This document shows positions 1 to 64,000 of a stretch of DNA of 64,000 nt, in pieces. Under the pieces are notes generated by a model. That model did no database searches and was not told where the DNA came from. It saw nothing but the letters and a program-made list of their open reading frames with translations. A program made the position numbers and the translations under genes. Source of the DNA: Thermus brockianus (GTDB taxonomy: Bacteria; Deinococcota; Deinococci; Deinococcales; Thermaceae). The stretch covers positions 1-64,000 of the forward strand of contig NZ_JAKEDV010000006.1 in assembly GCF_021462505.1 (NCBI RefSeq), given 5' to 3'. The stretch's first letter is position 1; the number at the start of each line of letters is the position of its first letter.

Positions 1-2
1 AG

Positions 3-263
3 GAGGCGGACGCGAGGCGGCTTGGGGAGCTTCTCCTTTCCCGGTGGGAGGTGGAGAACCGGTCCTTTTGGCTACGGGACGTCCTCCTCTATGAGGACGC
101 CTGCCAGGTGCGGGGCGTGGGGGCGCAAGTCTTGGCGGTCCTCCGGGCCTTTCTGGTGTCCCTGCTGTACCGCAGGGGGGTGCGGAAGAAGAAGGCGGCC
201 CTGGAGACCTTCTCCTTCCATCCCCTCTCCGCCCTCAGGTTCCTGGGGCTCTATGCGGTATAA
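3..263 (+). CDS. Transposase C-terminal fragment, ISAs1/IS4-like (cut by window edge)
   Basis: The frame is open from the left edge to a TAA at 261-263. The residues read EVENRSFWLRDVLLYEDACQ and continue with an alternating V/L/A region and a basic YRRGVRKKK segment. This matches the conserved C-terminus of ISAs1-type DDE transposases, in which a W-x-V-E-N-R-x-H-W-x-x-D-V block with the catalytic Glu is followed by E-D-x-x-x-V-R and a short helix. The catalytic core upstream lies outside the window, so I cannot tell whether the gene is intact. I see no clear terminal inverted repeat in the roughly 50 bases after the stop, which fits an old remnant. The next gene starts inside this frame. Confidence 0.6.
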   Translation, partial: EADARRLGELLLSRWEVENRSFWLRDVLLYEDACQVRGVGAQVLAVLRAFLVSLLYRRGVRKKKAALETFSFHPLSALRFLGLYAV

Positions 264-855
264 CGGTCAAGTCTGGGAGCTAGAAGCCACCGTGCTTCGG
301 GTCTTCCTCAAGGTGATTGACCTGCTGGGCGGGCCCAGGGCCATGGCGGAAAAGAGGCGCCTCACCTGGGCGGCAAGCCTCATGACCGCCGCCTACGCCG
401 TGGTCTTGGCCCAGGAGGCCATGTGGAGCGACGAGGCCATCGCCAAGGAACTGGGCCTTTCCACTGCGGCGGTGCGCCAGATCCTCCGCGCCGACCCGGA
501 AACCGCCCTCAAGAAGGTGACGGAGATGGCGGAAGGGGAAGGCCTTCGCACCCACGTGGCGGGGGGGCTGGCCAAAGCCGCTTACCGAGCCATCCGCCAA
601 GGCCAGGAGGAACCCCGGGTGCTCGGCTACTTCCTGGAGCGCTTTGTGGAGATGATGGGGATCCCCTGGGCCGTCTTGGTGCTCAAGGCAGTGAAGGGCC
701 TGGACTTCCCCGTGGGCAAGGAAACGCTCTTGGAAAGGCTTCGGGGCTTGCGCATTCTGGATAGGCCGGCAGAGGAGATCCTAGAGCGGCTGGAGTACCC
801 CGTGCAAGACCCCGCCGAACTCCTGCACCAGGTAAGGCTCCACCTGGAGGCATAG
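253..855 (+). CDS. Small helix-turn-helix regulatory protein (near-KaiC regulatory domain type)
   Basis: The product has about 200 residues from ATG 253, or 187 from GTG 292; the choice is uncertain because 253 lies inside the transposase frame. Residues around 60-85 contain a clear helix-turn-helix, W-S-D-E-A-I-A-K-E-L-G-L-S-T-A-A-V-R-Q-I-L, preceded by an alanine-rich helix. The layout resembles the small predicted regulators described next to KaiC-like ATPases (the TIGR03879 type), but that link is from memory and is an inference. The C-terminal half is helical and Leu/Arg-rich with no recognised domain. No KaiC homologue is visible in the window; the partner could lie upstream. guaA follows after 12 bases. 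Confidence 0.55.
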   Translation: MRYNGQVWELEATVLRVFLKVIDLLGGPRAMAEKRRLTWAASLMTAAYAVVLAQEAMWSDEAIAKELGLSTAAVRQILRADPETALKKVTEMAEGEGLRTHVAGGLAKAAYRAIRQGQEEPRVLGYFLERFVEMMGIPWAVLVLKAVKGLDFPVGKETLLERLRGLRILDRPAEEILERLEYPVQDPAELLHQVRLHLEA

Positions 856-867
856 TAGACTGGGGCC

Positions 868-2379
868 GTGGTCCTGGTCCTGGACTTCGGCTCCCAGTAC
901 ACAAGGCTCATCGCCCGGAGGCTTCGGGAACTCCGGGCCTTTTCCCTCATCCTCCCGGGGACCACCCCCTTGGAGGAAATCCTCCAATATAAGCCCCAGG
1001 CCCTCATCCTCTCCGGGGGGCCCAAGAGCGTCTTTGACCCCGAGGCCCCCCGCCCCGACCCCCGCCTCTTCGGGCTCGGCCTCCCCACCTTGGGCATCTG
1101 CTACGGGATGCAACTCCTCGCCCAGGAGCTCGGGGGCAAGGTGGAGCGCGCAGGCCGGGCGGAGTACGGCAAGGCCCTCCTCACCCGCTACGAGGGCCCC
1201 CTCTTCCGGGGGCTTTCCGGGGAGGTCCAGGTCTGGATGAGCCACCAAGACGCCGTCACCGAGCTTCCCCCCGGGTGGCGGGTTTCCGCCGCCACGGAGG
1301 AAAACCCCGTGGCCGCCATGGAGGGGCCGGACGGCAAGACCTTCGCCGTGCAGTTCCACCCCGAGGTGGCCCACACCCCCAAGGGGATGCAGATTTTGGA
1401 GAATTTCCTGGAGATAGCCGGCGTCCCCCGGGACTGGACCCCGGAGCACGTGCTGGAAAGCCTCCTCAAAGAGGTGCGGGAACGGGTGGGGCAGGAACGG
1501 GTCCTCCTGGCGGTCTCCGGGGGGGTGGACTCCAGCACCCTGGCCCTCCTCCTGGCCAAGGCCGGGGTGGACCACCTGGCGGTCTTCGTGGACCACGGGC
1601 TTTTGCGCCTCGGGGAGCGAGAGGAGGTGGAAGGGGCCCTGAGGGCCCTTGGGGTGAACCTCCTGGTGGTGGAGGCCAAGGGGCGCTTCCTTCAGGCCCT
1701 AAAGGGCGTGGAAGACCCCGAGGCGAAGCGGAAGATCATCGGGCGGGAGTTCGTGGCGGTCTTCTCGGAGGTGGCCCGGGAAAAGGGGCCCTTCCGCTTC
1801 CTGGCGCAAGGCACCCTGTACCCCGACGTGATCGAATCGGCGGGGGGGCACGGGGCCGCCAAGATCAAAAGCCACCACAACGTGGGCGGCCTTCCCGAGG
1901 ACCTGGAGTTTGCGCTTTTAGAGCCCTTCCGCCTCCTCTTCAAGGACGAGGTGCGGGAGCTCGCCCTCCTCCTCGGCCTGCCCGACCCCATCCGCCTGCG
2001 CCACCCCTTCCCGGGGCCAGGCCTTGCCGTGCGCATCCTGGGGGAGGTGACCGAGGAGCGCCTGGAGATCCTCCGCCAAGCGGACGACCTCTTCACGAGC
2101 CTCCTCAAGGAGTGGGGGCTTTACGGCCAGGTGGCCCAGGCCCTGGCCGTCCTCACCCCCCTAAGGAGCGTGGGGGTGGCGGGGGACGAGCGGAAGTACG
2201 GGTACGTCCTGGCCCTCAGGGCCGTGACCACGGAGGACTTCATGACCGCCGACTGGGCCAGGCTTCCCTTGGAGTTTCTGGACGAGGTGGCCCGGCGCAT
2301 CACCCGCAGGGTCCCCGAGGTGGGCCGGGTGGTCTACGACATCACCTCCAAGCCCCCCGCCACCATAGAGTGGGAGTGA
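868..2379 (+). CDS. guaA: GMP synthase (glutamine-hydrolysing)
   Basis: It converts XMP, ATP and glutamine to GMP in the last step of guanine nucleotide synthesis in the cytoplasm. The 503-residue protein has a class I glutamine amidotransferase domain first, with nucleophile Cys78 in GICYGMQ and the catalytic His-x-Glu in FHPEV near residue 164. An ATP-pyrophosphatase domain follows with the SGGVDSS loop near residue 217, and then the GMP-synthase dimerisation domain ([12 protein letters not shown], ending KPPATIEWE). Length and domain order are normal. The start is GTG 868, where the N-terminus [17 protein letters not shown] aligns with the family start. It is followed at 42 bases by a small GYD-domain gene. 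Confidence 0.97.
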
Positions 2380-2420
2380 GGGCGGAAGGCTTTGCTAAAC
2401 TGGGGGCACGGAGGCAGGCC

Positions 2421-2708
2421 ATGCCCACCTTTATCGTGCTCAGCACCCTCACGGATGACGGCGCGGAAACCCTGGTGAAAAACCCCGAGCGCATCAAGGA
2501 GGTGAACCAGGAGCTAGAAAGGGACTTCGGGGTGAAGGTGGTGGCCCAGTACGCTGTCCTTGGCCCCTATGACTTCGTGAACATCGTGGAGGCGGAGGAC
2601 GCCGCCAGCGTGGCCCGGGCCATGCTCCACCTGGCCTCCCGGGGAAGCGTGAAGACCACCACCCTCGAGGCCATCCCCGTGGCCGAACTCATCGCCCGGC
2701 TCAAATAG
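2421..2708 (+). CDS. GYD-domain small protein
   Basis: This is a 95-residue soluble protein beginning MPTFIVLSTLTDDGAETL. It has the ferredoxin-like pattern of the GYD family: a first strand, then a helix carrying K-x-x-E-R-I-K-E-V-N, then a central block in which GPYDFVNIVEAED takes the place of the family G-x-Y-D motif. The family has no established biochemical role. A purine-rich GGAGGCAGG sits just before the ATG and a TAAACT box about 25 bases upstream could be a -10. The TAG stop overlaps the GTG start of the next gene (TAGTG), so the two are probably translationally coupled. Confidence 0.8.
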   Translation: MPTFIVLSTLTDDGAETLVKNPERIKEVNQELERDFGVKVVAQYAVLGPYDFVNIVEAEDAASVARAMLHLASRGSVKTTTLEAIPVAELIARLK

Positions 2709-3085: not shown

Positions 3086-4062
3086 CCCTCCCTAAGCCAA
3101 CGGGCGGCCTCGAGGGCGTAGTAGGTGAGGATGCCCTGGGCCCCCGCCCGGCGGATGGCGTAAAGGGTTTCCAAGACCGCCCGCCGCTCGTCCAGGTGGC
3201 CCTGGAGGGCGGAAAGCTTCAGCATGGCGTACTCCCCGGAGACCTGGTAGGCGAAAAGGGGCTTGGCGAAGCGCCCCTTCAAGGCGGCAAGCACGTCCAG
3301 GTAGGGCAGGGCGGGCTTCACCATGAGGAGGTCCGCCCCCTCCTGGTCGTCCAGGCCCGCCTCCCTTAGGGCGTCCCAAAGCCCCGCCCTGGGGTCCATC
3401 TGGTAGCCCGAGCGGTCCCCGAACTCCGGAGCGCTCGCCGCCGCCTCCCGAAAAGGCCCGTAGAAGGCGGAGGCGTACTTCACCGCATAGGAGAGGATGG
3501 GCACGTGGGCGAAGCCCCCCTCGTCCAAGGCCTTGCGGATGGCCCGCACCTGGCCGTCCATCATGGCGCTTGGGGCCACCACGTCCGCCCCCGCCTGGGC
3601 CTGGGAGAGGGCGGTCTTGGCCAAAAGCTCTAAGGTGGCGTCGTTGTCCACGTAAAAGCCCAAGGGGCCCTCCCGCACCACCCCGCAGTGGCCGTGGCTC
3701 GTGTACTCGCAAAGGCAGGTGTCGGCGATGACGAGGAGCTCGGGGAGTTCCCGCTTCAGAAGGCGGATGGCCCGTTGCACCACCCCCTCCTCGGCGTAGG
3801 CCCCGTGGCCCAGGGGGTCCTTTTCCCCCTCGGGCAGGACGCCGAAGAGGATGACCCCGCCAAGCCCCGCCTTCAGGGCCTCCTCGCCCAGGCGGGGAAG
3901 GTCCTTTAGGGGATGGCGAAAGACCCCGGGCATGGAGGCCACCTCCTCCCGTTCCCCTTCCGCCTTCACGAAAAGGGGGAGGATGAGGTGGCGGGGGGAA
4001 AGCTCCACCTCGGCCACCAGGGGGCGCAGGAGGGGTGAACGCAGCCTTCTAGGGCGCTCCAT
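3082..4062 (-). CDS. hemB: Delta-aminolevulinic acid dehydratase (porphobilinogen synthase)
   Basis: It condenses two 5-aminolevulinate molecules to porphobilinogen in haem and corrinoid synthesis. The protein is about 326 residues from ATG 4062 (MERPRRLRSPLLRPL). A metal-site cysteine cluster reads DTCLCEYTSHGHC. The two active-site lysines lie in VKYASAFYGPFR and LLMVKPALPYLD. I chose 4062 over the ATG at 4080 because a TATAGT box at 4075-4070 ends 7 bases upstream, the spacing seen at many leaderless starts here, and because the family N-terminus begins at this Met. It is divergent from ebfC with a shared promoter core. Confidence 0.95.
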   Translation of the reverse strand: MERPRRLRSPLLRPLVAEVELSPRHLILPLFVKAEGEREEVASMPGVFRHPLKDLPRLGEEALKAGLGGVILFGVLPEGEKDPLGHGAYAEEGVVQRAIRLLKRELPELLVIADTCLCEYTSHGHCGVVREGPLGFYVDNDATLELLAKTALSQAQAGADVVAPSAMMDGQVRAIRKALDEGGFAHVPILSYAVKYASAFYGPFREAAASAPEFGDRSGYQMDPRAGLWDALREAGLDDQEGADLLMVKPALPYLDVLAALKGRFAKPLFAYQVSGEYAMLKLSALQGHLDERRAVLETLYAIRRAGAQGILTYYALEAARWLREG

Positions 4063-4092: not shown

Positions 4093-4410
4093 ATGAACCT
4101 ACAAAAGCTCCTCAAGGAAGCGCAAAAAGCCCAGAAGAAGGCGGCGGAGATCCAAGAACGCCTGGAAACCATGACCGTGGTGGGCACGGCCCAGGGCCTG
4201 GTGGAGGTGGAGGCCAACGGCCACGGCAAGATCCTCGCCGTGCGCCTCAAGCCCGAGGTGCTCACCGCCTTCCAGGACGACCTCGAGGCCCTGGAAGACC
4301 TCCTCCTCGTGGCCATCCAAGACGCCCAAAAGAAGGCCCACGAGCTCTCGGAAAAGGAAATGGCCCGGGAGCTTGGGGGCGTGGGCCAGATGCTGGGGAA
4401 GCTCTTCTAG
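4093..4410 (+). CDS. ebfC: YbaB/EbfC-family nucleoid-associated protein
   Basis: This 105-residue protein has the YbaB fold: an amphipathic helix (MNLQKLLKEAQKAQKKAAEI), a GLVEVEANGHGKILAVRLKPEV beta-hairpin, and a long C-terminal helix. Family members are dimeric DNA-binding nucleoid proteins and are characteristically encoded next to recR, as here. The stop codon at 4408-4410 abuts the recR ATG at 4411, so the two genes form one transcription unit. It starts from the plus arm of the promoter shared with hemB and is preceded by GGGGAGGGACG. Confidence 0.93.
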   Translation: MNLQKLLKEAQKAQKKAAEIQERLETMTVVGTAQGLVEVEANGHGKILAVRLKPEVLTAFQDDLEALEDLLLVAIQDAQKKAHELSEKEMARELGGVGQMLGKLF

Positions 4411-4995: not shown

Positions 4996-4996
4996 G

Positions 4997-5374
4997 ATGG
5001 AGGAACTCTTGCAACGCCTTTTGGACCGGGTGGAAGGGGCCTTCGCCGCAGGCGTGGGCACCCTGGACGGGCTTTTGGTGGAGGGGGTGAGGCGAAAGCG
5101 GGTGGACCTCGAGGCGGCCATCGCCGAGCACGCCGCCCTCCTCCGCCAGGCCAAGGCCGCCTACGCCGCAAGCCTGGGCGCCTCCCGGGTGGAGGAGCTC
5201 TGGATAGGGGGGCACCCCGTGGTAGGCTATGCCCGGATGGCGCGCGCCCCCAAGGCCCGGGAGGACCTCTTCCTGCTCCTCCTCATGGAGCCCTCGGCCA
5301 ACCTGGGCCGGGCCCGGGTGGAGGCCGCCAAGGCGGCGGAGAAGCTTTGGGAGGTGGTGGGATGGCCTACCTAG
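4997..5374 (+). CDS. Roadblock/LC7-like protein 1
   Basis: The 125-residue protein has an N-terminal helix (MEELLQRLLDRVEGAFAAG), a strand-turn VGTLDGLLVEGV, a helix rich in Ala/Lys, a strand with EELWIGGHPVVGYARM, and a C-terminal LFLLLLMEPSANLGRARVE segment followed by a helix. The last block is typical of roadblock/LC7 proteins. Family members regulate small Ras-like GTPases or act as dimeric scaffolds. It starts one base after the recR stop. Its 3' end overlaps the next roadblock gene by 13 bases. No GTPase is encoded nearby, so the partner is unknown. Confidence 0.65.
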   Translation: MEELLQRLLDRVEGAFAAGVGTLDGLLVEGVRRKRVDLEAAIAEHAALLRQAKAAYAASLGASRVEELWIGGHPVVGYARMARAPKAREDLFLLLLMEPSANLGRARVEAAKAAEKLWEVVGWPT

Positions 5375-6349: not shown

Positions 6350-8153
6350 AAAGGTTTTCCCGCCACCAGTCCAGGTAGGCCCGAAGCCGCGCCAGCCTGC
6401 GGTCGGGCCGGCCGGAGCGGGAGAGCTCGTGCCCTTCCTCGGGCACCCGGAAAAACCGCGCCTTCACCCCGAGGTGGAAGAGGGCAGTGTACCAGGTTTC
6501 TCCTTGGTCTATGGGACAACGGTGGTCCGCCTCGGAATGGACCACCAGGGTGGGAGTCTTCACCTGGTGGACCAGCCTTAAAGGGCTTTTCTCCCAAAGG
6601 ACCTCGGGGCGCTCCCAAGGCTTGGCGAAAAGCTCCAGGTGGGTGAAGCGGGGGCCGATGTCGCTAGCGCCGAAGAAGCTTAGCCAGTTGCAGATGCCCC
6701 GGTCGGTGACCGCCGCCTTAAAGCGCTCAGGATAGCGGGCGGTGAGCCAGTTCACCATATAGCCCCCGTAGCTTCCCCCCGCCACCCCCACCCGGTTCGG
6801 GTCCAAGGGAAAGCGGGCGAGCACGTGGTCCAAAAAGCCCAGGAGGTCCCTTTCATCCCGCTCGCCCCAAGCCCCCTCCAAAAGGGCGTAGTCCTGCCCG
6901 TAGCCCGTGGAGCCTCGAGGGTTGCAGAAGGCCACGGCGTAGCCCTGGGCCCGGAAAAGCTGGAGCTCCAGCATGGGGGCGGCCCCAAAGGCGGTGTGGG
7001 GCCCCCCGTGGATGTAAAGGATGACGGGGAAAGGGCCCTCCCCCTCGGGCAGGAGCACCCACCCCGGCACCCTGTGCCCCTCCGGGCTCTCCCAGGCGGT
7101 GGGCACGGGCTCGGCCAAGGGGAGGACCCCCGCGTTGGGGTCGTAGGTGCCCAAGGGGCCCTCGAGGCGGGCCGGGTGGGTGAAGCCCTCCGTGAGGAGG
7201 AATAGCCCCCTGGAGGTGCAGGCGAAGGAAAGGACGCTCCCCGAGGCGGAAAGGGCCTCCGCCTCCCCGTCCAGGCCCACCCGGTAAAGCCGGGCCACCC
7301 CTTCTTCCGTGCGCACCACATAGACCCCGTCCCCACCCCACTTGGGCCCCTGGAAGTGGGCGCCGAAGCGGAGGTCGCTGTTGATGGAGTTTTGGAGGCT
7401 CCCCGTGAAGAGGACCCGGGCCTCGCCCCCCTTCAGGTGGTAAAGCCTGGCCTCCGTCCCCCCGCCCCGCTCAAAGGCGTGGCCCAGGAAGAAAAGCCCT
7501 TCCGGGCTCCACTCCAGGCCGAAGATGGGGCCGTGGCCCCCGTAGACCTTCCGCAGGCCCCCCTCCTCCAGGAGGAAAAGGGTATCCCGCCCCTCCGCCT
7601 GGGCCTTGGAGTCCTCCGGCATCACCAGGTAAAGGCCCTCCGGGGCGAAGGCCATCTCCTTGGGGGGAGGGTAGCGGTCCAAGAGGAGCCGCTTCTCCCC
7701 GTCCTTTAGCAGGTAAAGGGCCAGGTTCCCCTCGGGGAGAAGGCCCCGGCCGTCAAACTTGAAGGGCCAGCCCTCAAAACGCCGGGGGCTTCCCGGTTTG
7801 GGGGCTTCCTTGAGGGCCAGGAAGGCCACCTCCCCCGAGGGGCCCAGGGCGTAGTCCAAGACCCCGGGGGTTTCCGTGAGCCTTTCCGCCTCACCCCCCC
7901 GCAGGTCCAGGCGAAAGAGCTCCTCCCCTTCCCCCACCCGGCGCAAGAAGTAGACGTAAGGGTGGGCATACCGGGGCTTCTTGGCCTCCTCCTGGGTCAG
8001 AAGGCGCAAAGCCCCGTCAAACAGGGCCAAGCGGGAGCGGTAGCGGGGCGGGTCCCCCTCGAGGATGTCCGTTAGGACGAAAAGGGGGAGCCCCTCGGGG
8101 CCTTCCGTGAGGCCGGAAAGGAAGCGGAGCTTCAAAAGGGTTTCGGGTTCCAC
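6348..8153 (-). CDS. S9 (prolyl oligopeptidase / acylaminoacyl-peptidase) family serine peptidase
   Basis: The 601-residue enzyme has an N-terminal beta-propeller region (residues about 1-345) and a C-terminal alpha/beta-hydrolase domain that starts at PFPVILYIHGGPHTAFG. The nucleophile is Ser461 in GGSYGGYMVNWL. The catalytic Asp lies in VHSEADHRCPIDQGE and the His in PEEGHELSRSG. No signal peptide is seen, so it is probably cytosolic and trims oligopeptides or N-acylated peptides. The start is GTG 8153, supported by TATCAT at 8165-8160 six bases upstream (leaderless). Its TAG sits inside the downstream hairpin terminator. Confidence 0.92.
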   Translation of the reverse strand: MEPETLLKLRFLSGLTEGPEGLPLFVLTDILEGDPPRYRSRLALFDGALRLLTQEEAKKPRYAHPYVYFLRRVGEGEELFRLDLRGGEAERLTETPGVLDYALGPSGEVAFLALKEAPKPGSPRRFEGWPFKFDGRGLLPEGNLALYLLKDGEKRLLLDRYPPPKEMAFAPEGLYLVMPEDSKAQAEGRDTLFLLEEGGLRKVYGGHGPIFGLEWSPEGLFFLGHAFERGGGTEARLYHLKGGEARVLFTGSLQNSINSDLRFGAHFQGPKWGGDGVYVVRTEEGVARLYRVGLDGEAEALSASGSVLSFACTSRGLFLLTEGFTHPARLEGPLGTYDPNAGVLPLAEPVPTAWESPEGHRVPGWVLLPEGEGPFPVILYIHGGPHTAFGAAPMLELQLFRAQGYAVAFCNPRGSTGYGQDYALLEGAWGERDERDLLGFLDHVLARFPLDPNRVGVAGGSYGGYMVNWLTARYPERFKAAVTDRGICNWLSFFGASDIGPRFTHLELFAKPWERPEVLWEKSPLRLVHQVKTPTLVVHSEADHRCPIDQGETWYTALFHLGVKARFFRVPEEGHELSRSGRPDRRLARLRAYLDWWRENL

Positions 8154-9551: not shown

Positions 9552-10004
9552 ATGCGCCCCTTGGCCCTTTTCCTCCTCGGCCTCTTCGCCTTGGCCCAAG
9601 GGCTTTCCTTTCCCAAGAGCACCCTTTACGTGGAAGGAGGCGGCAAGCGCTATACCCTCAGGGTGGAGGTGGCCGACACCCCCGAGCGCCAAGCCCAGGG
9701 CCTCATGTTCCGCAAGTCCCTGGGGGAGGACGAGGGCATGGTCTTCCTCTTCCCCGCCCCCACGGCAGGGGGGTTTTGGATGAAAAACACGCTCATTCCC
9801 CTTTCCATCGCCTTCTTTGACCGCCAGGGGGTCATCCTGCGCATCCTGGACATGGAGCCCTGCAAGGCCGACCCCTGCCCCGTCTACTACCCCGGGGTGG
9901 TGTACCAGGGGGCCCTCGAGGTGAACCGGGGCTGGTTCGCCCGGCGGGGCCTCACCCCCGGGGCCAGGGTAGGGGGCGAGGCCCTGAAGCTTTGGCCGAG
10001 ATAG
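9552..10004 (+). CDS. DUF192 family exported protein
   Basis: This 150-residue protein has a signal peptide (MRPLALFLLGLFALAQGLSF). The DUF192 core follows: L-x-V-E-V-A-D-T-P-E-R-Q-A-Q-G-L-M-F-R, then GMVFLFPAPTAGGFWMKNTLIPLSIAFFD, then MEPCKADPCPVYYPG and the terminal LEVNRGWFARRG. The PC...CP pair in the fourth block is standard in the family. Function is unknown; members are periplasmic or extracytoplasmic. A CATAAT box ends 6 bases before the ATG, so it may have its own leaderless promoter inside the tmk 3' end. A second DUF192-like gene follows one base after the stop. Confidence 0.9.
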   Translation: MRPLALFLLGLFALAQGLSFPKSTLYVEGGGKRYTLRVEVADTPERQAQGLMFRKSLGEDEGMVFLFPAPTAGGFWMKNTLIPLSIAFFDRQGVILRILDMEPCKADPCPVYYPGVVYQGALEVNRGWFARRGLTPGARVGGEALKLWPR

Positions 10005-12170: not shown

Positions 12171-13501
12171 ACGCGCACCAGCTTACCCTCACGGGTAGTC
12201 AAAAGGCGTTCCGGCCCCTCAAAGCCCAGCCCCCATACCGAAACCAGGGGAAGCGCAGCCAAGAGCGTTTTGGCTACGGGGCGCACGGGAAGGGGGCTGC
12301 GCTCCTCGAGGCCCCCCTCATCCCAAACGCTAAGGGCGATATCCTCCCCGGCCGCTAGGTTCACGCGGTAGAGCAACGTACGCGTTTTCTCCTCCTCCAA
12401 CACCACAAGATTCTTGGAATCCGGCCAGGCCACCCCCACCACCCGGTTACCCGGCTGGTCCAAAAGGTAAACGTACTCCGCATACAACCCCACTGGATTG
12501 GTTAGCAGAAGGACAAACCGCACCACCCGGCTGGGGCAGTCGCAAAGCGGCGTAGAAGGAACTATCAAAAGGTAGGCCCCCATCGGATCCAGGCTCAGGT
12601 GCCCCTCCCTAAGGCGCTGGAACACCGGGGGTAGCACCTCCTTTCCCTCTTTGGTCCCTAAGGGGACATAGCGGGCTTTCCCATCTTCCAGGACCCCACC
12701 CTTCAACCTCCAGGGAGGAATAGCGGCTTGGAAACCCTCGTTCGGCCCGAGGTCCTGACCCCCCCCGGCCTCCCAAAGGAGAACCCTCTCCCCCAACACC
12801 ACCACCTTCTTCCCCCCAGCCCCAACCCAGCGGGCAGCCACGTCCAACGTTTCTTGAGAAGCCAAAGAGGGGGATTGCAGGGCCACGGAGGGGGTGGGAG
12901 GAAAGGGAGCAGGCTTCTTGGCCTCCACCAAAGGTTGCAAACCGGCCAAGGCCAGCGCCAGTTGGTAGCGATTGACCTCTGTGGTCAAACCAAAGGAACC
13001 GTCCGGATTGAGGTCCATCAGGCCTGCTCCCAGCACGCGGCGCACGGCGGCAACCGCCCAGTGATCTTGGGGCACATCCCAAGGCAAGGGGGCTTCCTTG
13101 GCCACCCCTAAGCGCTCCAGCATCTTCGCCAGAACCACCGCCAAGGCCGCCCGGTTCAGCTCCTCTTGGCCTCGGAAGGTTCCATCGGGGTATCCGGAAA
13201 CCAAGTCCCAAGCCGCCGCCAAAGCCAGCCCTTCCAGAGCCCAGTGCCCCTTAGGAACGTCCCTGAAGGCCACCTCCTTGGGTTCCACACCCAGGTCCTT
13301 AAGCACCCGCCCCAACGTGGCCACCAACTGGTAGCGGTTCACGGGTTCCGTGCCCCGGAAGGTGCCATCCGGATACCCCTGCATCCACCCCGCCTGAACC
13401 ACACGTTCCACCCTCTCGGCCACCGGTCCCGCCGGCAGATCGGAAAAAGCGGCCAAAACCAGCCCCAGACCCCAAAAAACCCAAACCCAGATTCGCTTCA
13501 T
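12146..13501 (-). CDS. S-layer-homology (SLH) domain surface protein
   Basis: The 451-residue exported protein from ATG 13501 has a signal peptide (MKRIWVWVFWGLGLVLAAFS) and three SLH domains at about residues 20-70, 80-130 and 145-190. Each shows the pattern GW-x-x-GYPDGTFRG ... VNRYQLVATLGRVL. SLH domains bind pyruvylated secondary cell-wall polymer in Thermus. A proline-rich linker (KKPAPFPPTPS) leads to a C-terminal region of about 230 residues with repeated short beta strands, perhaps a propeller. I recognise no enzyme motif. The DNA is visibly less G+C-extreme than its neighbours, with many A/T-ending codons. The 3' end overlaps the HAD gene. Confidence 0.85.
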   Translation of the reverse strand: MKRIWVWVFWGLGLVLAAFSDLPAGPVAERVERVVQAGWMQGYPDGTFRGTEPVNRYQLVATLGRVLKDLGVEPKEVAFRDVPKGHWALEGLALAAAWDLVSGYPDGTFRGQEELNRAALAVVLAKMLERLGVAKEAPLPWDVPQDHWAVAAVRRVLGAGLMDLNPDGSFGLTTEVNRYQLALALAGLQPLVEAKKPAPFPPTPSVALQSPSLASQETLDVAARWVGAGGKKVVVLGERVLLWEAGGGQDLGPNEGFQAAIPPWRLKGGVLEDGKARYVPLGTKEGKEVLPPVFQRLREGHLSLDPMGAYLLIVPSTPLCDCPSRVVRFVLLLTNPVGLYAEYVYLLDQPGNRVVGVAWPDSKNLVVLEEEKTRTLLYRVNLAAGEDIALSVWDEGGLEERSPLPVRPVAKTLLAALPLVSVWGLGFEGPERLLTTREGKLVRVQLSTALW

Positions 13502-14659: not shown

Positions 14660-15088
14660 ATGCTGAACGCCAAGATTGAAACCCTGGGCGTGGACCCCCA
14701 GAACGGGAGCGTGGTGGTCCTGCTCAGGACGGAGAATGACAAGCTCCTCCCCATCGTCATCGGCCCCCTCGAGGCCCACCACATCGTGGTGGCCCTGCAG
14801 GGGGAAAAGCCCCCCCGTCCCCTCACCCCGGACCTCCTCCTCTCGGTAATGGAAATGCTTCAAGGAAAGCTCAAACGGGTGGAGATCACCGACCTAAAGG
14901 ACGGCACCTTCTACGCCCGCCTTATCCTGGAACACCGGGGGATTGAACTGGAGGTGGACGCCCGGCCCTCCGACGCCATGGCCCTGGCCCTCCGGGTGGG
15001 GGCCCCCATCCTGGTGGCGGAGGAGGTGGTGGAGAAGGCGGGGGTGGAGGAAGCGAGCCTCAAACCCCACGGGGCGGCGGAAGCCTAG
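14660..15088 (+). CDS. Bifunctional nuclease (BFN/DUF151) family protein
   Basis: This 142-residue protein contains the DUF151 core: VVLLRTENDKLLPIVIGPLEAHHIVVALQ, then RPLTPDLLLSVMEMLQGKLKRVEITDLKDGTFYARLIL, and SRPSDAMALA-like RPSDAMALALRVGAPILVAEEV. The I-G-x-x-E-A and D-x-R-P-S-D-A motifs are diagnostic. Plant and bacterial relatives have RNase/DNase activity; the bacterial role is not settled. The ATG is 6 bases downstream of TATACT, a clear leaderless start. The phosphoesterase gene starts 3 bases after the stop. Confidence 0.9.
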   Translation: MLNAKIETLGVDPQNGSVVVLLRTENDKLLPIVIGPLEAHHIVVALQGEKPPRPLTPDLLLSVMEMLQGKLKRVEITDLKDGTFYARLILEHRGIELEVDARPSDAMALALRVGAPILVAEEVVEKAGVEEASLKPHGAAEA

Positions 15089-15091: not shown

Positions 15092-15856
15092 GTGTCCCGG
15101 GCCATCCTCCTCTTTTTCTTCCTCCCGGCCCTGGCCCAAGGGGTGCGGGTGGCGGTCCTGGGGGACTGGGGTGCCGACACCCCGGGAAGGGCCCAGGTGG
15201 CGGCCCTTCTGCGAAAATCCCACGCCCAAAACCCCCTCACGGCCCTCCTCACCGTGGGGGACAACTTTTACCCCAGGGGCCAGGTGGTGGAGCGGTTTAT
15301 CCAGGACCTCCCGGCGGTGCCCCTGTACCCCGCCTTCGGCAACCACGATGCCCCCGCCCTGGCCGAGCAGCTTAGGCGCTTCCGCCGAGAAGGGCCCTAC
15401 TACCAGTTCCGGTTGGGACCCGTGGCCTTCTTCGTCCTCTACAGCGAGGCCGACCTCCTGGCCCAGAGGGCCTGGCTCAGCGAGGCCTTGGCCCACGCCA
15501 CCGCCCCCTGGCGCATCCTCGTCCTCCACCGCCCCCTCTATTCCTCGGGGCTCCACGGGGGAAGCCCCCTCTTGCGAAGCCTCTTAGAACCCCTCCTAAG
15601 GCGCCATGGGGTGGCCTTGGTCCTCGCCGGGCACGACCACCACTACGAGCGCCTCGAGGTGGGCCCCACCACCCACCTGGTCCTGGGGGGCGGCGGGGCG
15701 AGGCTCTACCCCACCCGGCCTCCCCTCCCCTTTAGCCGGGCCCTCGCCGTGGCCCACCACGCCCTCTTCCTGGAGGCCACGGAAACCGCCCTCCAGGGCT
15801 ACGCCCTAGACCCCGAGGGCCGGGTCCTGGACCGCTTTAGGCGGGGCTCCCCATGA
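15092..15856 (+). CDS. Secreted metallophosphoesterase (purple acid phosphatase-like)
   Basis: The 254-residue protein starts at GTG 15092 with a signal peptide (MSRAILLFFFLPALAQG) and then the calcineurin-type metal motifs in order. These are LGDWGADTPG (D-x-W), LTVGDNFYPRG (G-D-N), AFGNHDAPA (G-N-H-D), ILVLHRPLYSSG (H), and VLAGHDHHYER (G-H-x-H). The G-D-W-G and N-F-Y pattern is typical of acid-phosphatase type 5 relatives. It is presumably exported to the periplasm to release phosphate or cleave phosphoesters. Its last 20 bases overlap the convergent HIT gene. Confidence 0.9.
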   Translation: MSRAILLFFFLPALAQGVRVAVLGDWGADTPGRAQVAALLRKSHAQNPLTALLTVGDNFYPRGQVVERFIQDLPAVPLYPAFGNHDAPALAEQLRRFRREGPYYQFRLGPVAFFVLYSEADLLAQRAWLSEALAHATAPWRILVLHRPLYSSGLHGGSPLLRSLLEPLLRRHGVALVLAGHDHHYERLEVGPTTHLVLGGGGARLYPTRPPLPFSRALAVAHHALFLEATETALQGYALDPEGRVLDRFRRGSP

Positions 15857-16170: not shown

Positions 16171-17472
16171 CTACCTTAGGGGAAGCTCCAAGCGGGCCTC
16201 CTCCTTGACCCCCACCACCCGGCCCAAGAGGGTGTACCCCTCCACCCCCTCCACCCGGGCAAGGACCGTTTCCCCGGGCCGGGCCGGGCCTTGGAGGCGG
16301 GCCTCGTAGTAGTCGGGGGTGTGGCCCAGGGCGTACCCCCCCTGGAGGCGCTCCACCAGGACCTCCACCGTTTCGCCCAGCTTGGGCCTAATGCGCTCCT
16401 CCGCCAGGCGGTGGGCCAAGGCGATGAGTTCCTTGGTGCGGCGCTTGCGCACCTCCGGGGGCACCTGGGGCATGGAGGCGGCCCGGGTCTTGGGGCGGGG
16501 GGTGTAGGTGAAGGCGTGGACCCGGGTGGGCCGAAGCTCCTCCAGGAAGGCCAGGGTTTCCCGGTGCTCCTCCTCCGTCTCCGTGGGAAGCCCGGCAATG
16601 ACGTCGGTGGTGAGGGCAAAACCGGGGATGAGCTCGTAGGCCCTTTGCACCAGGTTCCGGTAGTAGGCCTTATCGTACCGGCGGCCCATGAGCTTCAGGA
16701 GCCGGTCCGAGCCCGTCTGCAGGGAAAGGTGGAGGTGGGGCCGCACCTCCGGGGCGTAGCGGGCCATGACCCGGAGGAGGTCCTCCCCGGTGTCCTCCGG
16801 CTCTATGGAGGAAAGCCGCACCTTGGCCCCCAGGTGGTAAAGGTCCTCCACGAGCCCAGCGATGCCCCTAGGGTGCCCCCGGTAGCTCCCAAGCCGCACC
16901 CCGGTGAGGACGATCTCCCGTATGCCCAGCCGCAGAAGGGCCTCCGCCTCGGCCAAGGCGTCCCGGTGGTCCCGGTGGCGCTCCTTTCCCCTGAGCCTAG
17001 GGATGATGCAGTAGGCGCACCCCACCTGGCAGCCGTCCTGCACCTTCAAAAAGGCCCGGACCCGGCTATTCAAAAGCCCCCGCTCTCCCGCCCCCCAGAA
17101 CTCGTTGGGCGGGGTGGTGATGGGGTCGGAGGGGAGGCCGAAATGCTCCAGGATCACCTTGGGAAGCTCGGCCTTGCGGCTATTGGGCACCACGGCATCG
17201 GCCCCGAGCTCCCGGATCGCTTCCGGGGCCAGTTCGGCGTAGCACCCGGTGACCACGATGAAGGCCTCGGGGTTGGCCCGCCGCGCCCGGCGGATCTCCT
17301 TGCGGGCGTCCGCCTCGGCGGTGGTGGTGACAGCGCAGGTGTTGATGACCACGAGGTCGGCCCCCGCCTCGAGGGGCACCACCTCGGGCTCCAAGGCCTT
17401 CAGGAAGCCCAAAAGGGCCTCGGTTTCCACCTGGTTCACCTTGCACCCCAGGGTGCGGAAGGCGGCGCGCAT
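16171..17472 (-). CDS. mtaB: tRNA t6A37 methylthiotransferase (MtaB-type radical SAM)
   Basis: It adds a methylthio group to t6A37 of ANN-decoding tRNAs. The 433-residue protein has the UPF0004 domain with three cluster cysteines (RTLGCKVNQVE, VINTCAVT, VTGCYAEL). The radical-SAM domain carries the C-x3-C-x2-C motif in CQVGCAYCIIPRLRGKERHR, and a TRAM domain lies at the C-terminus. The LGCKVNQ spelling and the CAVT motif point to the MtaB branch rather than MiaB. The start was set at ATG 17472 after a GGGAAGG site; longer frames run through a terminator and a tRNA and are not credible. Confidence 0.9.
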   Translation of the reverse strand: MRAAFRTLGCKVNQVETEALLGFLKALEPEVVPLEAGADLVVINTCAVTTTAEADARKEIRRARRANPEAFIVVTGCYAELAPEAIRELGADAVVPNSRKAELPKVILEHFGLPSDPITTPPNEFWGAGERGLLNSRVRAFLKVQDGCQVGCAYCIIPRLRGKERHRDHRDALAEAEALLRLGIREIVLTGVRLGSYRGHPRGIAGLVEDLYHLGAKVRLSSIEPEDTGEDLLRVMARYAPEVRPHLHLSLQTGSDRLLKLMGRRYDKAYYRNLVQRAYELIPGFALTTDVIAGLPTETEEEHRETLAFLEELRPTRVHAFTYTPRPKTRAASMPQVPPEVRKRRTKELIALAHRLAEERIRPKLGETVEVLVERLQGGYALGHTPDYYEARLQGPARPGETVLARVEGVEGYTLLGRVVGVKEEARLELPLR

Positions 17473-49145: not shown

Positions 49146-50192
49146 ATGAAGGGGCTCATCCTGGCCGCCGGGCGGGGCACGAGGCTCCGCCCCCTCACCC
49201 ACACCCGCCCGAAACCCGTGATCCGGGTGGCGGGCCGGCCCATCATCCACTACGCCGTGGAGAACCTACGGGAAGCGGGCATAGAGGAGATCGGGGTGGT
49301 GGTCTCCCCGGAAACGGAAAAGGACATCCGCGAGGCCCTCACGGGCTACGGGGTGCGCTACGTCCTCCAAGAGGAGCCCCAGGGCCTGGCCCACGCCGTG
49401 GCCGTGGCCCGGGACTTCCTGGGGGACAGCCCCTTCGTCCTTTACCTGGGGGATAACCTCTTCCAAAAGGGCATCCGCCCCTTCGTGGCGGCCTTCCGGG
49501 AAGGGGTGAGCGCCGTCATCGCCCTGGTGCGGGTGGAGGACCCGAGGCAGTTCGGGGTGGCGGTGCTAAGGGGAAACCGCGTCGTGAGGCTTTTGGAAAA
49601 GCCCCAAGAGCCCCCTTCGGACCTGGCCGTGGCCGGGGTCTACGTCTTCACCCCCGAGGTCTTGGAGGTTATCCAGGACCTCAAGCCCTCCGCCCGGGGG
49701 GAGTACGAGATCACGGACGCCATCCAAGGCCTCATTGACCGGGGCAGGGAGGTGGTGGGGGTGGAGGTTTTGGGCTGGTGGAAGGACACGGGCCGCCCCA
49801 AGGACCTCCTGGACGCCAACCGCCTCCTCCTAGAGGAGCTTTCCCCGAGGGTGGAGGGCGAGGTGGAGGCGAGCGAGCTCACGGGCCGGGTGGTGGTGGA
49901 GAAGGGGGCCAAGGTGGTCCGGAGCACCGTCATCGGCCCCGCCTTCATCGGGGAAGGGGCAGTGGTGGAGGGGGCCTACGTGGGGCCCTTCACCTCCTTG
50001 GGACCGGGGGCTAGGGTGGTGCGCTCGGAGGTGGAGTATTCCATCCTCGAGGACCACGCCGCCCTGGAAGACGTGGCCCTGCGCCTCCAGGAGAGCATCC
50101 TAGGGGTAGGGGCCAAGGTGCAAAGCCGCAACGGGCTTCCCCGGGCCCACCGCCTGATCCTCGGGGACCTCTCCCAGGTGGAACTGGCCTAG
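49146..50192 (+). CDS. Glucose-1-phosphate thymidylyltransferase-like nucleotidylyltransferase (long form)
   Basis: The 348-residue protein starts with the nucleotide-binding loop MKGLILAAGRGTRLRPLTHT followed by RPKPVIRVAGRPIIHY. It has the metal Asp in VLYLGDNLFQKGI and the sugar site GVYVFTPEVLEVIQDLKPSARGEYEITDAI ... GWWKDTGRPKDLLDANRLLL. A C-terminal left-handed beta-helix with hexapeptide-like repeats (GPAFIGEGAVVEGAYVGPFTSLGPGA) follows. This is the RmlA_long architecture. It could act in dTDP-sugar or UDP-sugar synthesis for cell-surface glycans; no other rml genes are adjacent. It is leaderless. birA starts one base after its stop. Confidence 0.9.
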   Translation: MKGLILAAGRGTRLRPLTHTRPKPVIRVAGRPIIHYAVENLREAGIEEIGVVVSPETEKDIREALTGYGVRYVLQEEPQGLAHAVAVARDFLGDSPFVLYLGDNLFQKGIRPFVAAFREGVSAVIALVRVEDPRQFGVAVLRGNRVVRLLEKPQEPPSDLAVAGVYVFTPEVLEVIQDLKPSARGEYEITDAIQGLIDRGREVVGVEVLGWWKDTGRPKDLLDANRLLLEELSPRVEGEVEASELTGRVVVEKGAKVVRSTVIGPAFIGEGAVVEGAYVGPFTSLGPGARVVRSEVEYSILEDHAALEDVALRLQESILGVGAKVQSRNGLPRAHRLILGDLSQVELA

Positions 50193-51077
50193 ATGCCGGC
50201 GCTCCTTTCCCTCCTCACGGAGGAGTTCCAAAGCGGCGAGGCCCTGGCCCGGCGCCTCGGGGTGAGCCGGGCCGCCATCTCCAAGGAGGCCAAGCGCCTC
50301 CAGGAAGAGGGCTTCCCCGTGGAGGTTTCCCGCCAAGGCTACCGCATCCTTCCCGGCACCCCCCTCCCTCACCTCTTCCGCCCCCCGGGGAGGCTGGGGA
50401 AGCCCTACCGCTACCTGGGCCGGGTGGGGAGCACCCAGGACGTCCTCCGAGCCTGGGCCGAGGCGGGGGCCCCCGAGGGAGCCTTGGTCCTGGCGGAAGT
50501 CCAGGAGCGGGGCCGGGGAAGGCGGGGAAGGAGGTGGGAAAGCCGCCCTGGGGCGAGCCTCACCTTCTCCCTCCTCCTAAGGCCCCGCCTCCCCCTCTCT
50601 GCCCTAGGCCTCCTCCCCCTTCTTGCGGGCCTCGCCCTCGTTGAGGCGGTGGGGGTGGGGGGGCTCAAGTGGCCCAACGACCTCCTGAGCCCGGACGGCC
50701 GCAAGCTCGCCGGGGTGCTCCTCGAGGCCAAGGCGGAAGGGGAGGAGGTGGCCCATGCCCTCCTGGGCGTGGGGGTGAACGTGGCCTGGGCCCCGGAGGG
50801 GGCGGCCTTTTTGCAGGCGTTCACCCCCCTTTCCCGGCGGGAGGTGCTGGAGAGGTTCTTGGCCCGCCTCGAGGCCCTCCTCCCCCTTTTGGAAGACCCA
50901 GAAGCCTTCCTCCCCCGCTACGCCCGGGCCTCCTACACCCTGGGCCGCCGGGTGCGGGTGGAAACCCCCAAGGGCCCCGTGGAAGGCGTGGCCGAGGCCG
51001 TCCTCCCCGACGGGAGCCTCCTCGTGGGGGGAGTACGGGTGGGGGCGGGGGAGGTGGCCCTCCTGGGGATTGAGTAA
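50193..51077 (+). CDS. birA: Biotin-[acetyl-CoA-carboxylase] ligase / biotin operon repressor
   Basis: The 294-residue protein has an N-terminal winged helix (LLSLLTEEFQSGEALARRLG, VSRAAISKEAKRLQEEGFPVEV) that in relatives binds the bio operator. A catalytic domain follows with the biotinyl-AMP loop QERGRGRRGRRWES near residue 107 and GGLKWPNDLLSPDGRKLAGVLLEAKAE, then the C-terminal SH3-like cap. The DNA-binding domain makes it the bifunctional type. ATG 50193 directly follows the nucleotidylyltransferase TAG. Confidence 0.95.
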   Translation: MPALLSLLTEEFQSGEALARRLGVSRAAISKEAKRLQEEGFPVEVSRQGYRILPGTPLPHLFRPPGRLGKPYRYLGRVGSTQDVLRAWAEAGAPEGALVLAEVQERGRGRRGRRWESRPGASLTFSLLLRPRLPLSALGLLPLLAGLALVEAVGVGGLKWPNDLLSPDGRKLAGVLLEAKAEGEEVAHALLGVGVNVAWAPEGAAFLQAFTPLSRREVLERFLARLEALLPLLEDPEAFLPRYARASYTLGRRVRVETPKGPVEGVAEAVLPDGSLLVGGVRVGAGEVALLGIE

Positions 51078-51893: not shown

Positions 51894-53535
<1,642 letters not shown>

Positions 53536-57292: not shown

Positions 57293-58162
57293 CTAGCGGA
57301 TCTCCACCCCGGCCCAGCGTTCCAAAAGCTTCAGGGCCTCCACGTGGTCGGCCTCGGGGGAAAGCTCCCGCTTGGCCATCTCGTAGAGCTCCCGGGTGAG
57401 GCGAAGGAGGGGGCTTGGGTCCTTAGCCCCCTCCAGCACCCCCATGGCGATGCCCAGGTCCTTCACCAAAAGCCCGAGGGCGAAGGTCTTGGGAAAAGCC
57501 CGGGTGAGAACCCTTTGCGGGATGAGGTTTTCCGTGGCGTTGGAGCGGCCGCTGGAGGCGTTGATGGCCTCGAGGGCCTTTTCCCCCGGCACCCCCTGCC
57601 GCACCAAGGCCAAAAGCCCCTCCCCCGCCGCCCAGAGGTTCACCGCCAGGAGGGCGTTGTTGATGGCCTTCACCGCATGCCCCGCCCCCACGGGCCCCAC
57701 GTGCACCACCTTGCCGGCGTAGGCCAGGTAGGGCTTCACCCTTTCCACCGCCTCCGCTTCCCCGCCCATCATCACCGTGAGGGTGCCCTTTTCCGCCCCC
57801 ACGGTGCCCCCGGAGACCGGGGCGTCCAGGTAGGTGACGCCCTTTTCCCCAAGCCTTTCCGCCAGGCGTCGGCTCGCCTCGGGCTCGCCGCTCGTGGCGT
57901 CTACCCAGTAGGTGCCGGGGCGGAGGTGGGGCAAGAGGGCCTCCGCCACCTCCGCCACCTCCTGGGTGGTGGGCAGGCAGGTGAAGACCACCTGGGCCTC
58001 CGCCACCCTTTCCAGGGGCACCGCCTCCGAACCGAACTCCGCCTGGTGCTTTAGGGCCTTCGCAAAGGTCCGGTTCCAGACCAGGGTGGGAAAGCGCTTG
58101 GCCAGATGCCCCGCCATGGGGTAGCCCATGGCCCCAAGCCCGATGAAGGCCACCTTCTCCAT
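57293..58162 (-). CDS. 3-hydroxyisobutyrate dehydrogenase family protein
   Basis: This is a 289-residue beta-hydroxyacid dehydrogenase. The dinucleotide loop is [17 protein letters not shown], the substrate motif [22 protein letters not shown], and the catalytic Lys lies in [18 protein letters not shown]. Final helices ([10 protein letters not shown]) close the all-helical domain. NWRTF-like WNRTFAKA after strand 2 suggests NADP or NAD use but does not settle it. The function in valine breakdown fits its place tail to tail with the branched-chain 2-oxoacid dehydrogenase; related enzymes also reduce glyoxylate or succinic semialdehyde. Confidence 0.88.
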
Positions 58163-58552: not shown

Positions 58553-60176
<1,624 letters not shown>

Positions 60177-60227: not shown

Positions 60228-61049
60228 CTAGCCGAGAAACCGGGCGATGAGCCGGTCCCGCCAAGGGGCAGGAAGGAGCCTTAGGAGAAGGGTTTCCCGG
60301 ATACGGGCGGGGTGGGCCACCAGGTAGCGGGCCTTGGGGTTTTCGCTTTCCAGGGCCTTAAGCACAGCCTCCGCTACCCGCTCGGGGGGAAGGCCCCTTC
60401 GGGCGTTCCGCTCCGCTAGCCTTCGGGCCACCTCCAGGTAGCGGCCATAGACCCCTTCCGTGCCCGGGGGAGGGGGTTCCAGGTAGGCCTCGGCCGCTTT
60501 CAGGGAGCGCTCCCAGATGGGGGTGGCCACGGAGCCGGGCTCTACGAGGGAAACCCGCACGCCAAAGGGGCGAAGCTCCACCCTGAGGGCGTCCGCCAGG
60601 GCCTCGAGGGCGAACTTGCTGGCGGCATAGGGCCCCATGAGGGGAAGGGCCACCAGGCCGGAGACCGAGCCCATGAGGACCACACGCCCACGGTTTGGGC
60701 GCAAAAGGGGCAGGAAGGCCTTCACCGTGGCGAAGGCCCCGAGGACGTTCACCTCCAAGGCCTGGCGAAAAGCGGCCAAGGGCACGAGCTCTAAGGGCCC
60801 CGCCACGGCGATGCCGGCGTTGGCCACGAGGCCATAGAGCCCCTTCCTCAGGGCCTCCTTGGCCCTTTCCAGGTCCTCCTCCCGGGTCACGTCCAGGAAC
60901 AGGGGGGTGATGCCCTCCGCCCTTAGGGCCTCGGCGTCCTCCTCCCGGCGCACCCCGCCGTAGACCCGGAAGCCCCTTTGGGCGAGAAGCCGGGCCGTGG
61001 CCCGGCCGATGCCGCTTCCCGCCCCGGTAACGAGCACTTGCCTTTCCAT
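60228..61049 (-). CDS. Short-chain dehydrogenase/reductase (SDR)
   Basis: The 273-residue classical SDR has the cofactor loop VLVTGAGSGIGRATARLLAQ, NAG motif GLVANAGIAVAGPLE, the catalytic Ser in VVLMGSVSGLVALPLMG and the Y-x-x-x-K pair in PYAASKFALEALADALRVEL. The substrate is not inferable; the closest general type is the retinol/steroid-dehydrogenase-like group. ATG 61049 was chosen because TATACT (61063-61058) lies 8 bases upstream. It is 54 bases from the divergently facing lipB start and diverges from the FMN oxidase. Confidence 0.88.
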   Translation of the reverse strand: MERQVLVTGAGSGIGRATARLLAQRGFRVYGGVRREEDAEALRAEGITPLFLDVTREEDLERAKEALRKGLYGLVANAGIAVAGPLELVPLAAFRQALEVNVLGAFATVKAFLPLLRPNRGRVVLMGSVSGLVALPLMGPYAASKFALEALADALRVELRPFGVRVSLVEPGSVATPIWERSLKAAEAYLEPPPPGTEGVYGRYLEVARRLAERNARRGLPPERVAEAVLKALESENPKARYLVAHPARIRETLLLRLLPAPWRDRLIARFLG

Positions 61050-62356: not shown

Positions 62357-62377
62357 GCGGCCTGCCGGGCTTAGCCC

Positions 62378-62821: not shown

Positions 62822-62830
62822 GTCCACCCC

Positions 62831-63100
62831 CTACTTGCGCACCAGCTTCTCCGTGAAGGGAAGAAGCCCGAGAATCCTGGCCCGCTTGATGGTCTTGGCC
62901 AGGATCCGTTGCTCCTTGGCGCTAAGCCCCGTGCGGCGGCGGGGAAGGATCTTCCCCGTCTCCGACAGGAACCGCTTCAGCACCTCCACGTTCCGGTAGT
63001 CCTTCAGGTCAAACTCTCCCAGGGTGGCCTTCACCTTGGCCTTCCGGGAGGGGCGCCGCTGCGCCTCCTTCTTGGTGGGTTTAGCGTTTTTCGTGCTCAA
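62831..63100 (-). CDS. rpsR: 30S ribosomal protein S18
   Basis: The 89-residue protein has a basic N-terminal tail ([20 protein letters not shown]) and the S18 core [52 protein letters not shown]. The start is TTG 63100, which overlaps the ssb stop as TTGA. This unusual start is fixed by the family N-terminus and by the lack of any other in-frame start nearby. S18 binds next to S6, encoded two genes upstream. Confidence 0.96.
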
Positions 63101-63921
63101 AACGGCAAATCCTCCTCCGGCGGGAAGTCCTCGAGTCCCTCGTCAATGTCCACCCCACCCGTCTGGACCGGTTGGGGCCTGCTTCCGCCGGTCTGGGCAG
63201 GCCCACGGGTGGGCCGCTCCAAGCGGAGCGCCTCCACACGGGTCTGGAAGCGCCTTTCCCCGCTGGAGCTGGTCCAGGAGTCATTCACCAAACGGCCGAT
63301 CACCAAAAGCCCGTCGCCCTTCCTCAGCTCCCCAGCCCACTCGGCCAGGTCGCGCCAGGCCTGAACCTCTATGAAGTGGGTTTTCTCCTCCCCGTGTTCG
63401 CCTCGGGAGGCAACCTCAGCCCCCCCTCCCCGGCGGCGCTCGTTCACCGCCAGGCCCAGCCGGGCTACCGCCGTTCCCTGGGGGGTGTAGCGGAGTTCGG
63501 GGTCCCGGGTGAGGTTGCCCATGAGGACCACCTGGTTCAGGGCGTGGCGGAGCCTGGGCTGGTTGCGGGCGTCCTCCTGGGTCTCCCGCCCGCGGGCGTC
63601 CAGGGGGTCAATGAAGTCGGCCCGCACTTGCACCTCGCTCCGCCTCTCCCCGTCCCGCTCCCACTGGCGGTACTCCAGCCGCCCCTCCACGAAGAGGAGC
63701 TGGCCCTTTTCCAAGACATCCCCCCACATCTCCGCTTGGCGGCCCAGAAGCCGCACCCGGTGATACCAGGGAACCTCCCGCTCCTGGCCCGACTCGTCCC
63801 AGAGGGTATCCTGTCCGGCCAGGTTGAGCTCCAAGATGGCGAGCCCCCCCGGGGTGTAGCGCATGTCCGGCCGGGAAGTGAGGGCACCAATGAGGAATAC
63901 GCGGTTCAGGCCTCGTGCCAT
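63097..63921 (-). CDS. ssb: Single-stranded DNA-binding protein with two OB folds
   Basis: The 274-residue SSB carries two OB domains. The first runs from [20 protein letters not shown] to about residue 110 ([27 protein letters not shown]). The second runs from [21 protein letters not shown] to about residue 225 ([28 protein letters not shown]). A Gly/Gln/Pro linker and an acidic C-terminal tip ([11 protein letters not shown]) that binds partner proteins follow. The duplicated OB form working as a dimer is the hallmark of Deinococcus-Thermus. It overlaps the rpsR start by 4 bases. Confidence 0.97.
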
Positions 63922-63930
63922 GCTCCAAGT

Positions 63931-64000
63931 TTACGCCTTGCTGAGGAGGGGCTCCTGGGTCTTCACCACCATGACCCGGCGCACGTTGTCGCGGATGCGG
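63931..64000 (-). CDS. rpsF: 30S ribosomal protein S6, C-terminal end only (runs off the window)
   Basis: The visible residues on the minus strand are RIRDNVRRVMVVKTQEPLLSKA and a TAA at 63933-63931. They match the C-terminus of Thermus S6 (R-I-x-D-N-V-R-R-V-M-V-V-K). The rest of the gene lies beyond base 64000. It heads the conserved rpsF-ssb-rpsR-rplI operon, 9 bases before the ssb start. Confidence 0.93.
   Translation of the reverse strand, partial: RIRDNVRRVMVVKTQEPLLSKA

Follow-up and report, generated by a model that had tools for sequence, protein, structure and literature searches.

A highly iterated palindrome embedded in the purged tetramer TCGA of Thermus genomes

TCGA and the octamer in the window

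The window, a stretch of 64,000 nt of the Thermus brockianus genome (designated G000; 2.35 Mb, 24 contigs), contains the tetramer TCGA only 50 times, and 46 of these lie within one palindromic octamer, CCTCGAGG, which occurs at about one copy per 1.4 kb of the genome. The first-pass annotation of the window had claimed about 45 copies, and each of the 14 positions that it cited falls no more than 6 bp from an actual copy. Among the TCGA sites outside the octamer it had rightly listed GATCGAAT, ATTCGAAC and CCTCGAGC, but missed CCTCGAGT at 63129, so that four exist. All sites are given below; octamers and exceptions carry no strand, apart from the tRNA match, where the strand is that of the gene.

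1830..1837 TCGA outside the octamer, GATCGAAT
2663..2670 octamer
3108..3115 octamer
4281..4288 octamer
5107..5114 octamer
6913..6920 octamer
7160..7167 octamer
8057..8064 octamer
9914..9921 octamer
12304..12311 octamer
14767..14774 octamer
15652..15659 octamer
17367..17374 octamer
17645..17652 TCGA outside the octamer, ATTCGAAC, in the T-loop of tRNA-Ala (17629-17704, minus strand)
18095..18102 octamer; core and flank lost together in other Thermus
18489..18496 TCGA outside the octamer, CCTCGAGC
18804..18811 octamer; many Thermus have CCTGGAGG
19627..19634 octamer
20781..20788 octamer; kept in most Thermus, two have CCTCCAGG
23446..23453 octamer; exchanges with CCTCCAGG
23467..23474 octamer; with C as the final base, the core becomes CCTCCAGC or CCTCAAGC
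25605..25612 octamer
28191..28198 octamer
28623..28630 octamer
28857..28864 octamer
31011..31018 octamer
33842..33849 octamer
34121..34128 octamer
34814..34821 octamer
35434..35441 octamer
37443..37450 octamer
37934..37941 octamer
38219..38226 octamer
41285..41292 octamer
41567..41574 octamer
42335..42342 octamer
43066..43073 octamer
45431..45438 octamer
46090..46097 octamer
46423..46430 octamer
47716..47723 octamer
50045..50052 octamer
50720..50727 octamer
50867..50874 octamer
52201..52208 octamer
53340..53347 octamer
57568..57575 octamer
58567..58574 octamer
60602..60609 octamer
63129..63136 TCGA outside the octamer, CCTCGAGT

An order-1 Markov null of the window gave 132 ± 11 TCGA and 3.9 ± 1.8 octamers (maximum 7), in agreement with the earlier statement that composition alone predicts few octamers. 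In the codon null, synonymous codons were shuffled inside each called gene with proteins and codon use kept, and 22.5 ± 4.1 octamers were expected against 41 observed, and 253 ± 11 TCGA against 45. The octamer excess was thus about 1.8-fold instead of over tenfold, because 38 of the 41 copies in coding DNA encode Leu-Glu with preferred codons, in the phase xxC-CTC-GAG-Gxx. Neither null reproduced both the scarcity of TCGA and the number of octamers, which confirms the observation. Ordinary codon or dinucleotide bias, which these Leu-Glu copies might seem to support, is rejected by the codon-preserving null, and its probability, taken together with deamination of methylated TCGA (see below), is close to nil.

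The same disproportion was found in 222 kb of G000 coding DNA, where TCGA occurred 175 times against 1009 expected and CCTCGAGG 157 times against 95 (1.65-fold), while CCTCGAGC was not spared (9 against 87) and almost every other TCGA context was at zero; outside CTCGAG, TCGA stood about 80-fold below the codon null. The larger anomaly is therefore a near-total ban on TCGA with one exempt context. This exemption is what most sets the octamer apart inside Thermus, and its in-frame enrichment is real but modest. In the whole genome, CCTCGAGG was present in 1626 copies and its reversed word in 298, and the 26 Thermus genomes first searched carried 1231-2158 copies each. A simple gene caller was used, with 15-260 kb sampled per genome, and the pooled Thermus tests take in related, phylogenetically non-independent genomes. 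CGCG was also strongly depleted in the window (97 against 348 under a maximal-order Markov model, ratio 0.28).

The claim that codon choice avoids TCGA was borne out in the strongly avoiding Thermus genomes. Before GA, the Ile codon ATC fell to 2.3% from 89.9% elsewhere, the Phe codon TTC to 1.1% from 81%, and the Val codon GTC to 0.3% from 31%. ATC was replaced by both ATT and ATA, and GTC by GTG; the presence of ATA and GTG among the replacements points to selection on the site and not to C-to-T decay by cytosine deamination. Deamination of 5-methylcytosine was rejected on two grounds, since these codons do not suit it and 5mC methylases (PF00145) are absent from G000 and present in only two of the 26 Thermus genomes. 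At the same time, the share of CTC before GAG was 0.468 with C..G flanks (baseline 0.481) and 0.09 with C..C flanks; for most of the remaining flanks it was near zero, and before GAC it was 0.001. One-mismatch variants of the octamer that retain the TCGA core had ratios of 0.00-0.14, while most variants without the core were near 1. In relaxed Thermus genomes ATCGA had been regained and GTCGAC and CTCGAC had not, which fits transitions recovering before transversions.

The TaqI methylase and endonuclease locus

The first-pass annotation had attributed the avoidance to a restriction-modification (R-M) system of the TaqI/TthHB8I type, which recognises TCGA. This was supported in outline, the exception being T. 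brockianus itself, where no candidate R.TaqI (PF09573) was found and only an orphan ortholog of M.TaqI adjoins gyrB. A PF07669 search recovered, in each Thermus genome checked, a methylase roughly 400 aa long; it is orthologous to M.TaqI (phmmer E 4e-172 to 1aqj), with the Pfam domains TaqI_C and Eco57I and an invariant NPPY motif. Its gene lies between kbl and gyrB in all sampled Thermus (in G012 the locus is split across contigs). R.TaqI was found in seven of the 26 genomes (R+), each time inserted after the methylase gene, and in no other sampled genome of the order. For T. thermophilus, we take HB8 to be R+ and HB27 to lack the endonuclease (R-).

Two clades were distinguished in the methylase tree. 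The orphan clade, Mo, comprises the R- Thermus, including G000, whose methylase is about 66% identical to the M.TaqI type; the R-associated clade, Mr, comprises the seven R+ genomes, G005, phage phiLo and a Bacteroidia metagenome-assembled genome (MAG). In the kbl plus gyrB tree, G000 and G007 (both Mo) group with G022 and G005 (both Mr), a conflict that indicates replacement of one allele by the other at this locus. Purifying selection acts on Mo (dN/dS 0.18-0.30). The loop that follows NPPY and the TaqI_C domain both distinguish it from Mr.

The ratio of TCGA outside CTCGAG to the codon null was 0.010-0.099 in R+ Thermus genomes, 0.012-0.40 in R- ones and 0.8-1.2 outside Thermus, except in G027, which also has the methylase; in genera without a TaqI-type system TCGA was not purged. 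The comparison of strains with and without TCGA restriction thus gave the direction suggested at the outset, R+ genomes being the more purged (Mann-Whitney p=0.008). These distributions suggest restriction as the driver of the ban. A resident TaqI R-M system as its sole cause was rejected, R being absent from G000, and an R.TaqI carried on a plasmid or phage was looked for and not found. Avoidance in G000 would then reflect the history of the genus or recurrent exposure, and not an active cognate pair there; a non-homologous TCGA nuclease may also be present.

A second methylase was considered as a reader of the octamer. The ortholog of the core N4/N6 methylase TTHA0409 (PDB 2zie), at L081 7813-9413 (G000:C2), is overlapped by a gene of 225 aa that gave no Pfam, NCBIfam, PADLOC or PDB match, and the two were found together in about 20 of the 26 Thermus genomes. 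They are possibly an uncharacterised R-M pair. This pair was not favoured as the octamer reader, as the partner gene was not found in G002, an R+ genome in which the octamer is spared, or in several other octamer-keeping genomes.

A favouring force on the octamer itself

The octamer is also favoured in ways that exemption does not require. Off-frame copies, which require rare codons, exceeded the codon null 17.5-fold and 7.5-fold in frames 0 and 1 of the pooled strongly avoiding Thermus, and off-frame CTCGAG was enriched 14-fold and 3.7-fold in the same frames of other Thermaceae. The favoured context is longer than 8 bp, with GCCTCGAGGC at 4.9-fold and the 12-bp GGCCTCGAGGCC at 6.8-fold, and T at position -2 was avoided in all frames. 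In G000, 19 pairs of octamers lay less than 300 bp apart against about 33 expected (p<=0.002), both when octamers were placed uniformly and when they were permuted among CCTGGAGG/CCTCCAGG sites. Control words, unlike the octamer, cluster, and GCCCGGGC leans the opposite way to these clustering controls. Moreover, CTCGAG was enriched about 1.4-3.3-fold in most sampled non-Thermus genomes without the TCGA ban, so that purge and favouring are separable. The off-frame copies, the extended flanks, the even spacing and the sister genera together show a favouring force separate from exemption. The HIP-like (highly iterated palindrome) role proposed by the first-pass annotation for a protected and enriched octamer was supported in outline, with the qualification that protection and enrichment are two separate facts. 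Intergenic octamers (21 against 1.4 expected) were not counted among the principal evidence, since the gene caller, a simple one, misses genes.

Two side observations concern other genomes of the order. Several non-Thermus Thermaceae that enrich CTCGAG (L019, L021, L025, L026) share an N6-adenine methylase of the DPPF type, about 290 aa long, which is a candidate partner of the hexamer there. G041, the densest sampled genome of the order, carries 6195 copies of CCTCGAGG in 3.8 Mb and does not avoid TCGA.

Single octamer positions were not specially conserved: they were kept in a fraction of 0.49 of cases, against 0.47 for CCTGGAGG/CCTCCAGG, and site-specific conservation was rejected. The density is thus maintained by turnover. 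Among ortholog sites, flank and core tended to change in step: both were intact in 73 and both lost in 48, only the core was lost in 28 and only the flank in one; because these sequences are related, the Fisher p is indicative only.

Turnover, even spacing and the 1626 copies in 2.35 Mb recall the uptake signal sequence (USS) of Haemophilus, for which significant even spacing has been described (PMC1939737), and the DNA uptake sequence (DUS) of Neisseria. An element spread by molecular drive, with competent Thermus preferring octamer-bearing DNA, is nevertheless quite unlikely. Neither DUS nor USS is a palindrome, and both have a proven uptake receptor; for T. thermophilus, DNA uptake is reported to show no sequence preference (PMC6561018), and the CTCGAG core is also enriched, without even spacing, in other Thermaceae.

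A ratchet of methyl-directed mismatch repair, converting near-matches into octamers without a selected function, has been considered for the cyanobacterial HIPs; in Elhai's model, HIPs are linked to orphan methylases that recognise sequences within them (Elhai 2015, PMC4390886), and the core M.TaqI ortholog of Thermus would suit it. However, CCTTGAGG was not depleted (ratio 1.15) and CCTGGAGG was in excess (2.0), and over-dispersion is not predicted by such a ratchet, so that we regard it as very improbable. Vsr-like conversion from CCTTGAGG was rejected for the same lack of depletion.

Mobile elements and the proposed explanation

The plasmids of HB8 and HB27 show the Thermus-type pattern of TCGA and octamer. 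In the small phages IN93, P23-77, phiKo and Tsatsa, three TCGA sites outside the octamer were left against 179 expected, and about eight octamers were found against 8.5. These counts, together with the in-frame use of CTC inside the octamer at its baseline level, are what would be expected if TaqI-type enzymes were intrinsically blind to CCTCGAGG and its copies merely survived without function. This explanation is unlikely. The Bacteroidia MAG, whose methylase belongs to the same Mr clade (81% identical to the M.TaqI type), avoids TCGA (3 against 54 expected at the methylase locus) and does not spare the octamer, which has seven copies in 2.1 Mb where the reversed control word has 51; it also carries an N-terminally truncated remnant of R.TaqI beside the intact methylase gene (L186 11266-11586). 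The octamer exemption is thus specific to Thermus. The excess of off-frame copies, the 12-bp context, the even spacing and the enrichment in phage phiMa likewise call for a positive force.

In phiMa (L224, L227), 84 coding octamers were found against 23 expected (3.6-fold), and its 90 copies of CCTCGAGG in 52 kb (1.7 per kb) are over-dispersed; this density is above that of every Thermus host genome sampled. Even spacing and phage enrichment would suit a function needed on each DNA fragment, such as a Chi-like signal for DNA-end processing, for example by AddAB, readable both ways and protecting phages like phiMa. To our knowledge, none of the known Chi sites is palindromic, and the lytic phages P23-45 and phiLo carry few or no octamers, so that this reading, despite the presence of AddAB in Thermus (PMC9751324), is about as improbable as an uptake element. 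Phage phiFa, which was isolated on HB27, shows hardly any avoidance of TCGA. The Mr-clade M.TaqI homolog of phiLo (L220 42311-43453), placed close to that of T. parvatiensis in the tree, seems to be a methylase acquired to counter restriction.

The explanation that we prefer, with a probability of roughly 0.6, is that two independent forces act at one site, a TaqI-type purge and an octamer favoured in itself, which a Thermus-specific reader exempts. Restriction of the TaqI type would select TCGA out of Thermus chromosomes, plasmids and most phages, while the taqIM/taqIR locus between kbl and gyrB switches between Mr with R and an orphan Mo, as in G000. CCTCGAGG, best within GGCCTCGAGGCC, is a highly iterated palindrome held at near-constant density by turnover, and a Thermus-specific factor reading the octamer would render it uncuttable and so let it escape the purge. 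Candidates for this reader are N6-adenine methylation inside the octamer by an orphan M.TaqI paralog, or another Thermus methylase or binding protein. We suspect that methylation by the orphan allele is the most economical candidate, since octamers would then be methylated in all strains; the specificity is a predicted one, and orthology to M.TaqI alone does not establish octamer methylation. Proteins that read the octamer do exist: the endonuclease AbsI cleaves CC^TCGAGG. N4-methylcytosine at CCTCGAGGA is known from Azotobacter chroococcum (PMC4465626). No enzyme homologous to either was identified in Thermus in the present analysis.

Several observations weigh against this explanation. A number of R- genomes, including G000, are purged as much as R+ genomes, so that resident R.TaqI is not required and recent loss, genus-wide gene flow or an unrecognised TCGA nuclease must be invoked. 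G005, which has an Mr-like methylase and no R, is relaxed among purged relatives. Even spacing was seen only in Thermus and phiMa, and CTCGAG is enriched in other Thermaceae that lack an M.TaqI ortholog, which means that no single enzyme explains the whole family. Several of these Thermaceae have a different core methylase in common. In the Bacteroidia MAG, R is truncated and the TCGA ratio rests on one 21-kb locus.

A narrower version, which we offer tentatively and consider rather doubtful, derives both exemption and purge from the one locus. Mr would methylate every TCGA and be paired with R, and Mo would have narrowed to CCTCGAGG, so that octamers would be methylated in every strain and other TCGA sites only in Mr strains; the orphan methylase would then act as a genus-wide vaccination against a roaming R. 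If so, a cell or phage meeting or acquiring R would survive only with TCGA confined to pre-methylated octamers, and the evenly spaced palindromic mark would be what this vaccination leaves behind.

With its GC-rich 8-bp palindrome in numerous copies, frame-independent excess, site turnover and extended symmetric context, the octamer resembles HIP1 (GCGATCGC) and the other HIPs, a class defined in cyanobacteria with thousands of copies, and its core would match the target predicted for a conserved orphan methylase of N6-adenine type. The core M.TaqI ortholog, an orphan in most genomes, is the putative counterpart in Thermus for recognition of the octamer or TCGA. Unlike the HIPs, the octamer belongs to another phylum, has another sequence, lies inside a nearly forbidden tetramer and is over-dispersed at about 700-900 copies per Mb. 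It is a Deinococcota palindrome of the HIP type embedded in a purged tetramer, and a literature search found no paper joining CCTCGAGG with Thermus.

What highly iterated palindromes do has been a standing question since HIP1 was described in 1995, and Thermus adds an independent example from a different phylum. It is easily transformed, only one gene, in a constant position, encodes the candidate methylase, R+ and R- strains occur naturally, and the clean tetramer context allows octamer effects to be read without background. The approximately 80-fold depletion would rank among the strongest signatures of restriction avoidance in a cellular genome, and the locus would make plain to see how an R-M system and its orphan methylase replace each other as alleles.

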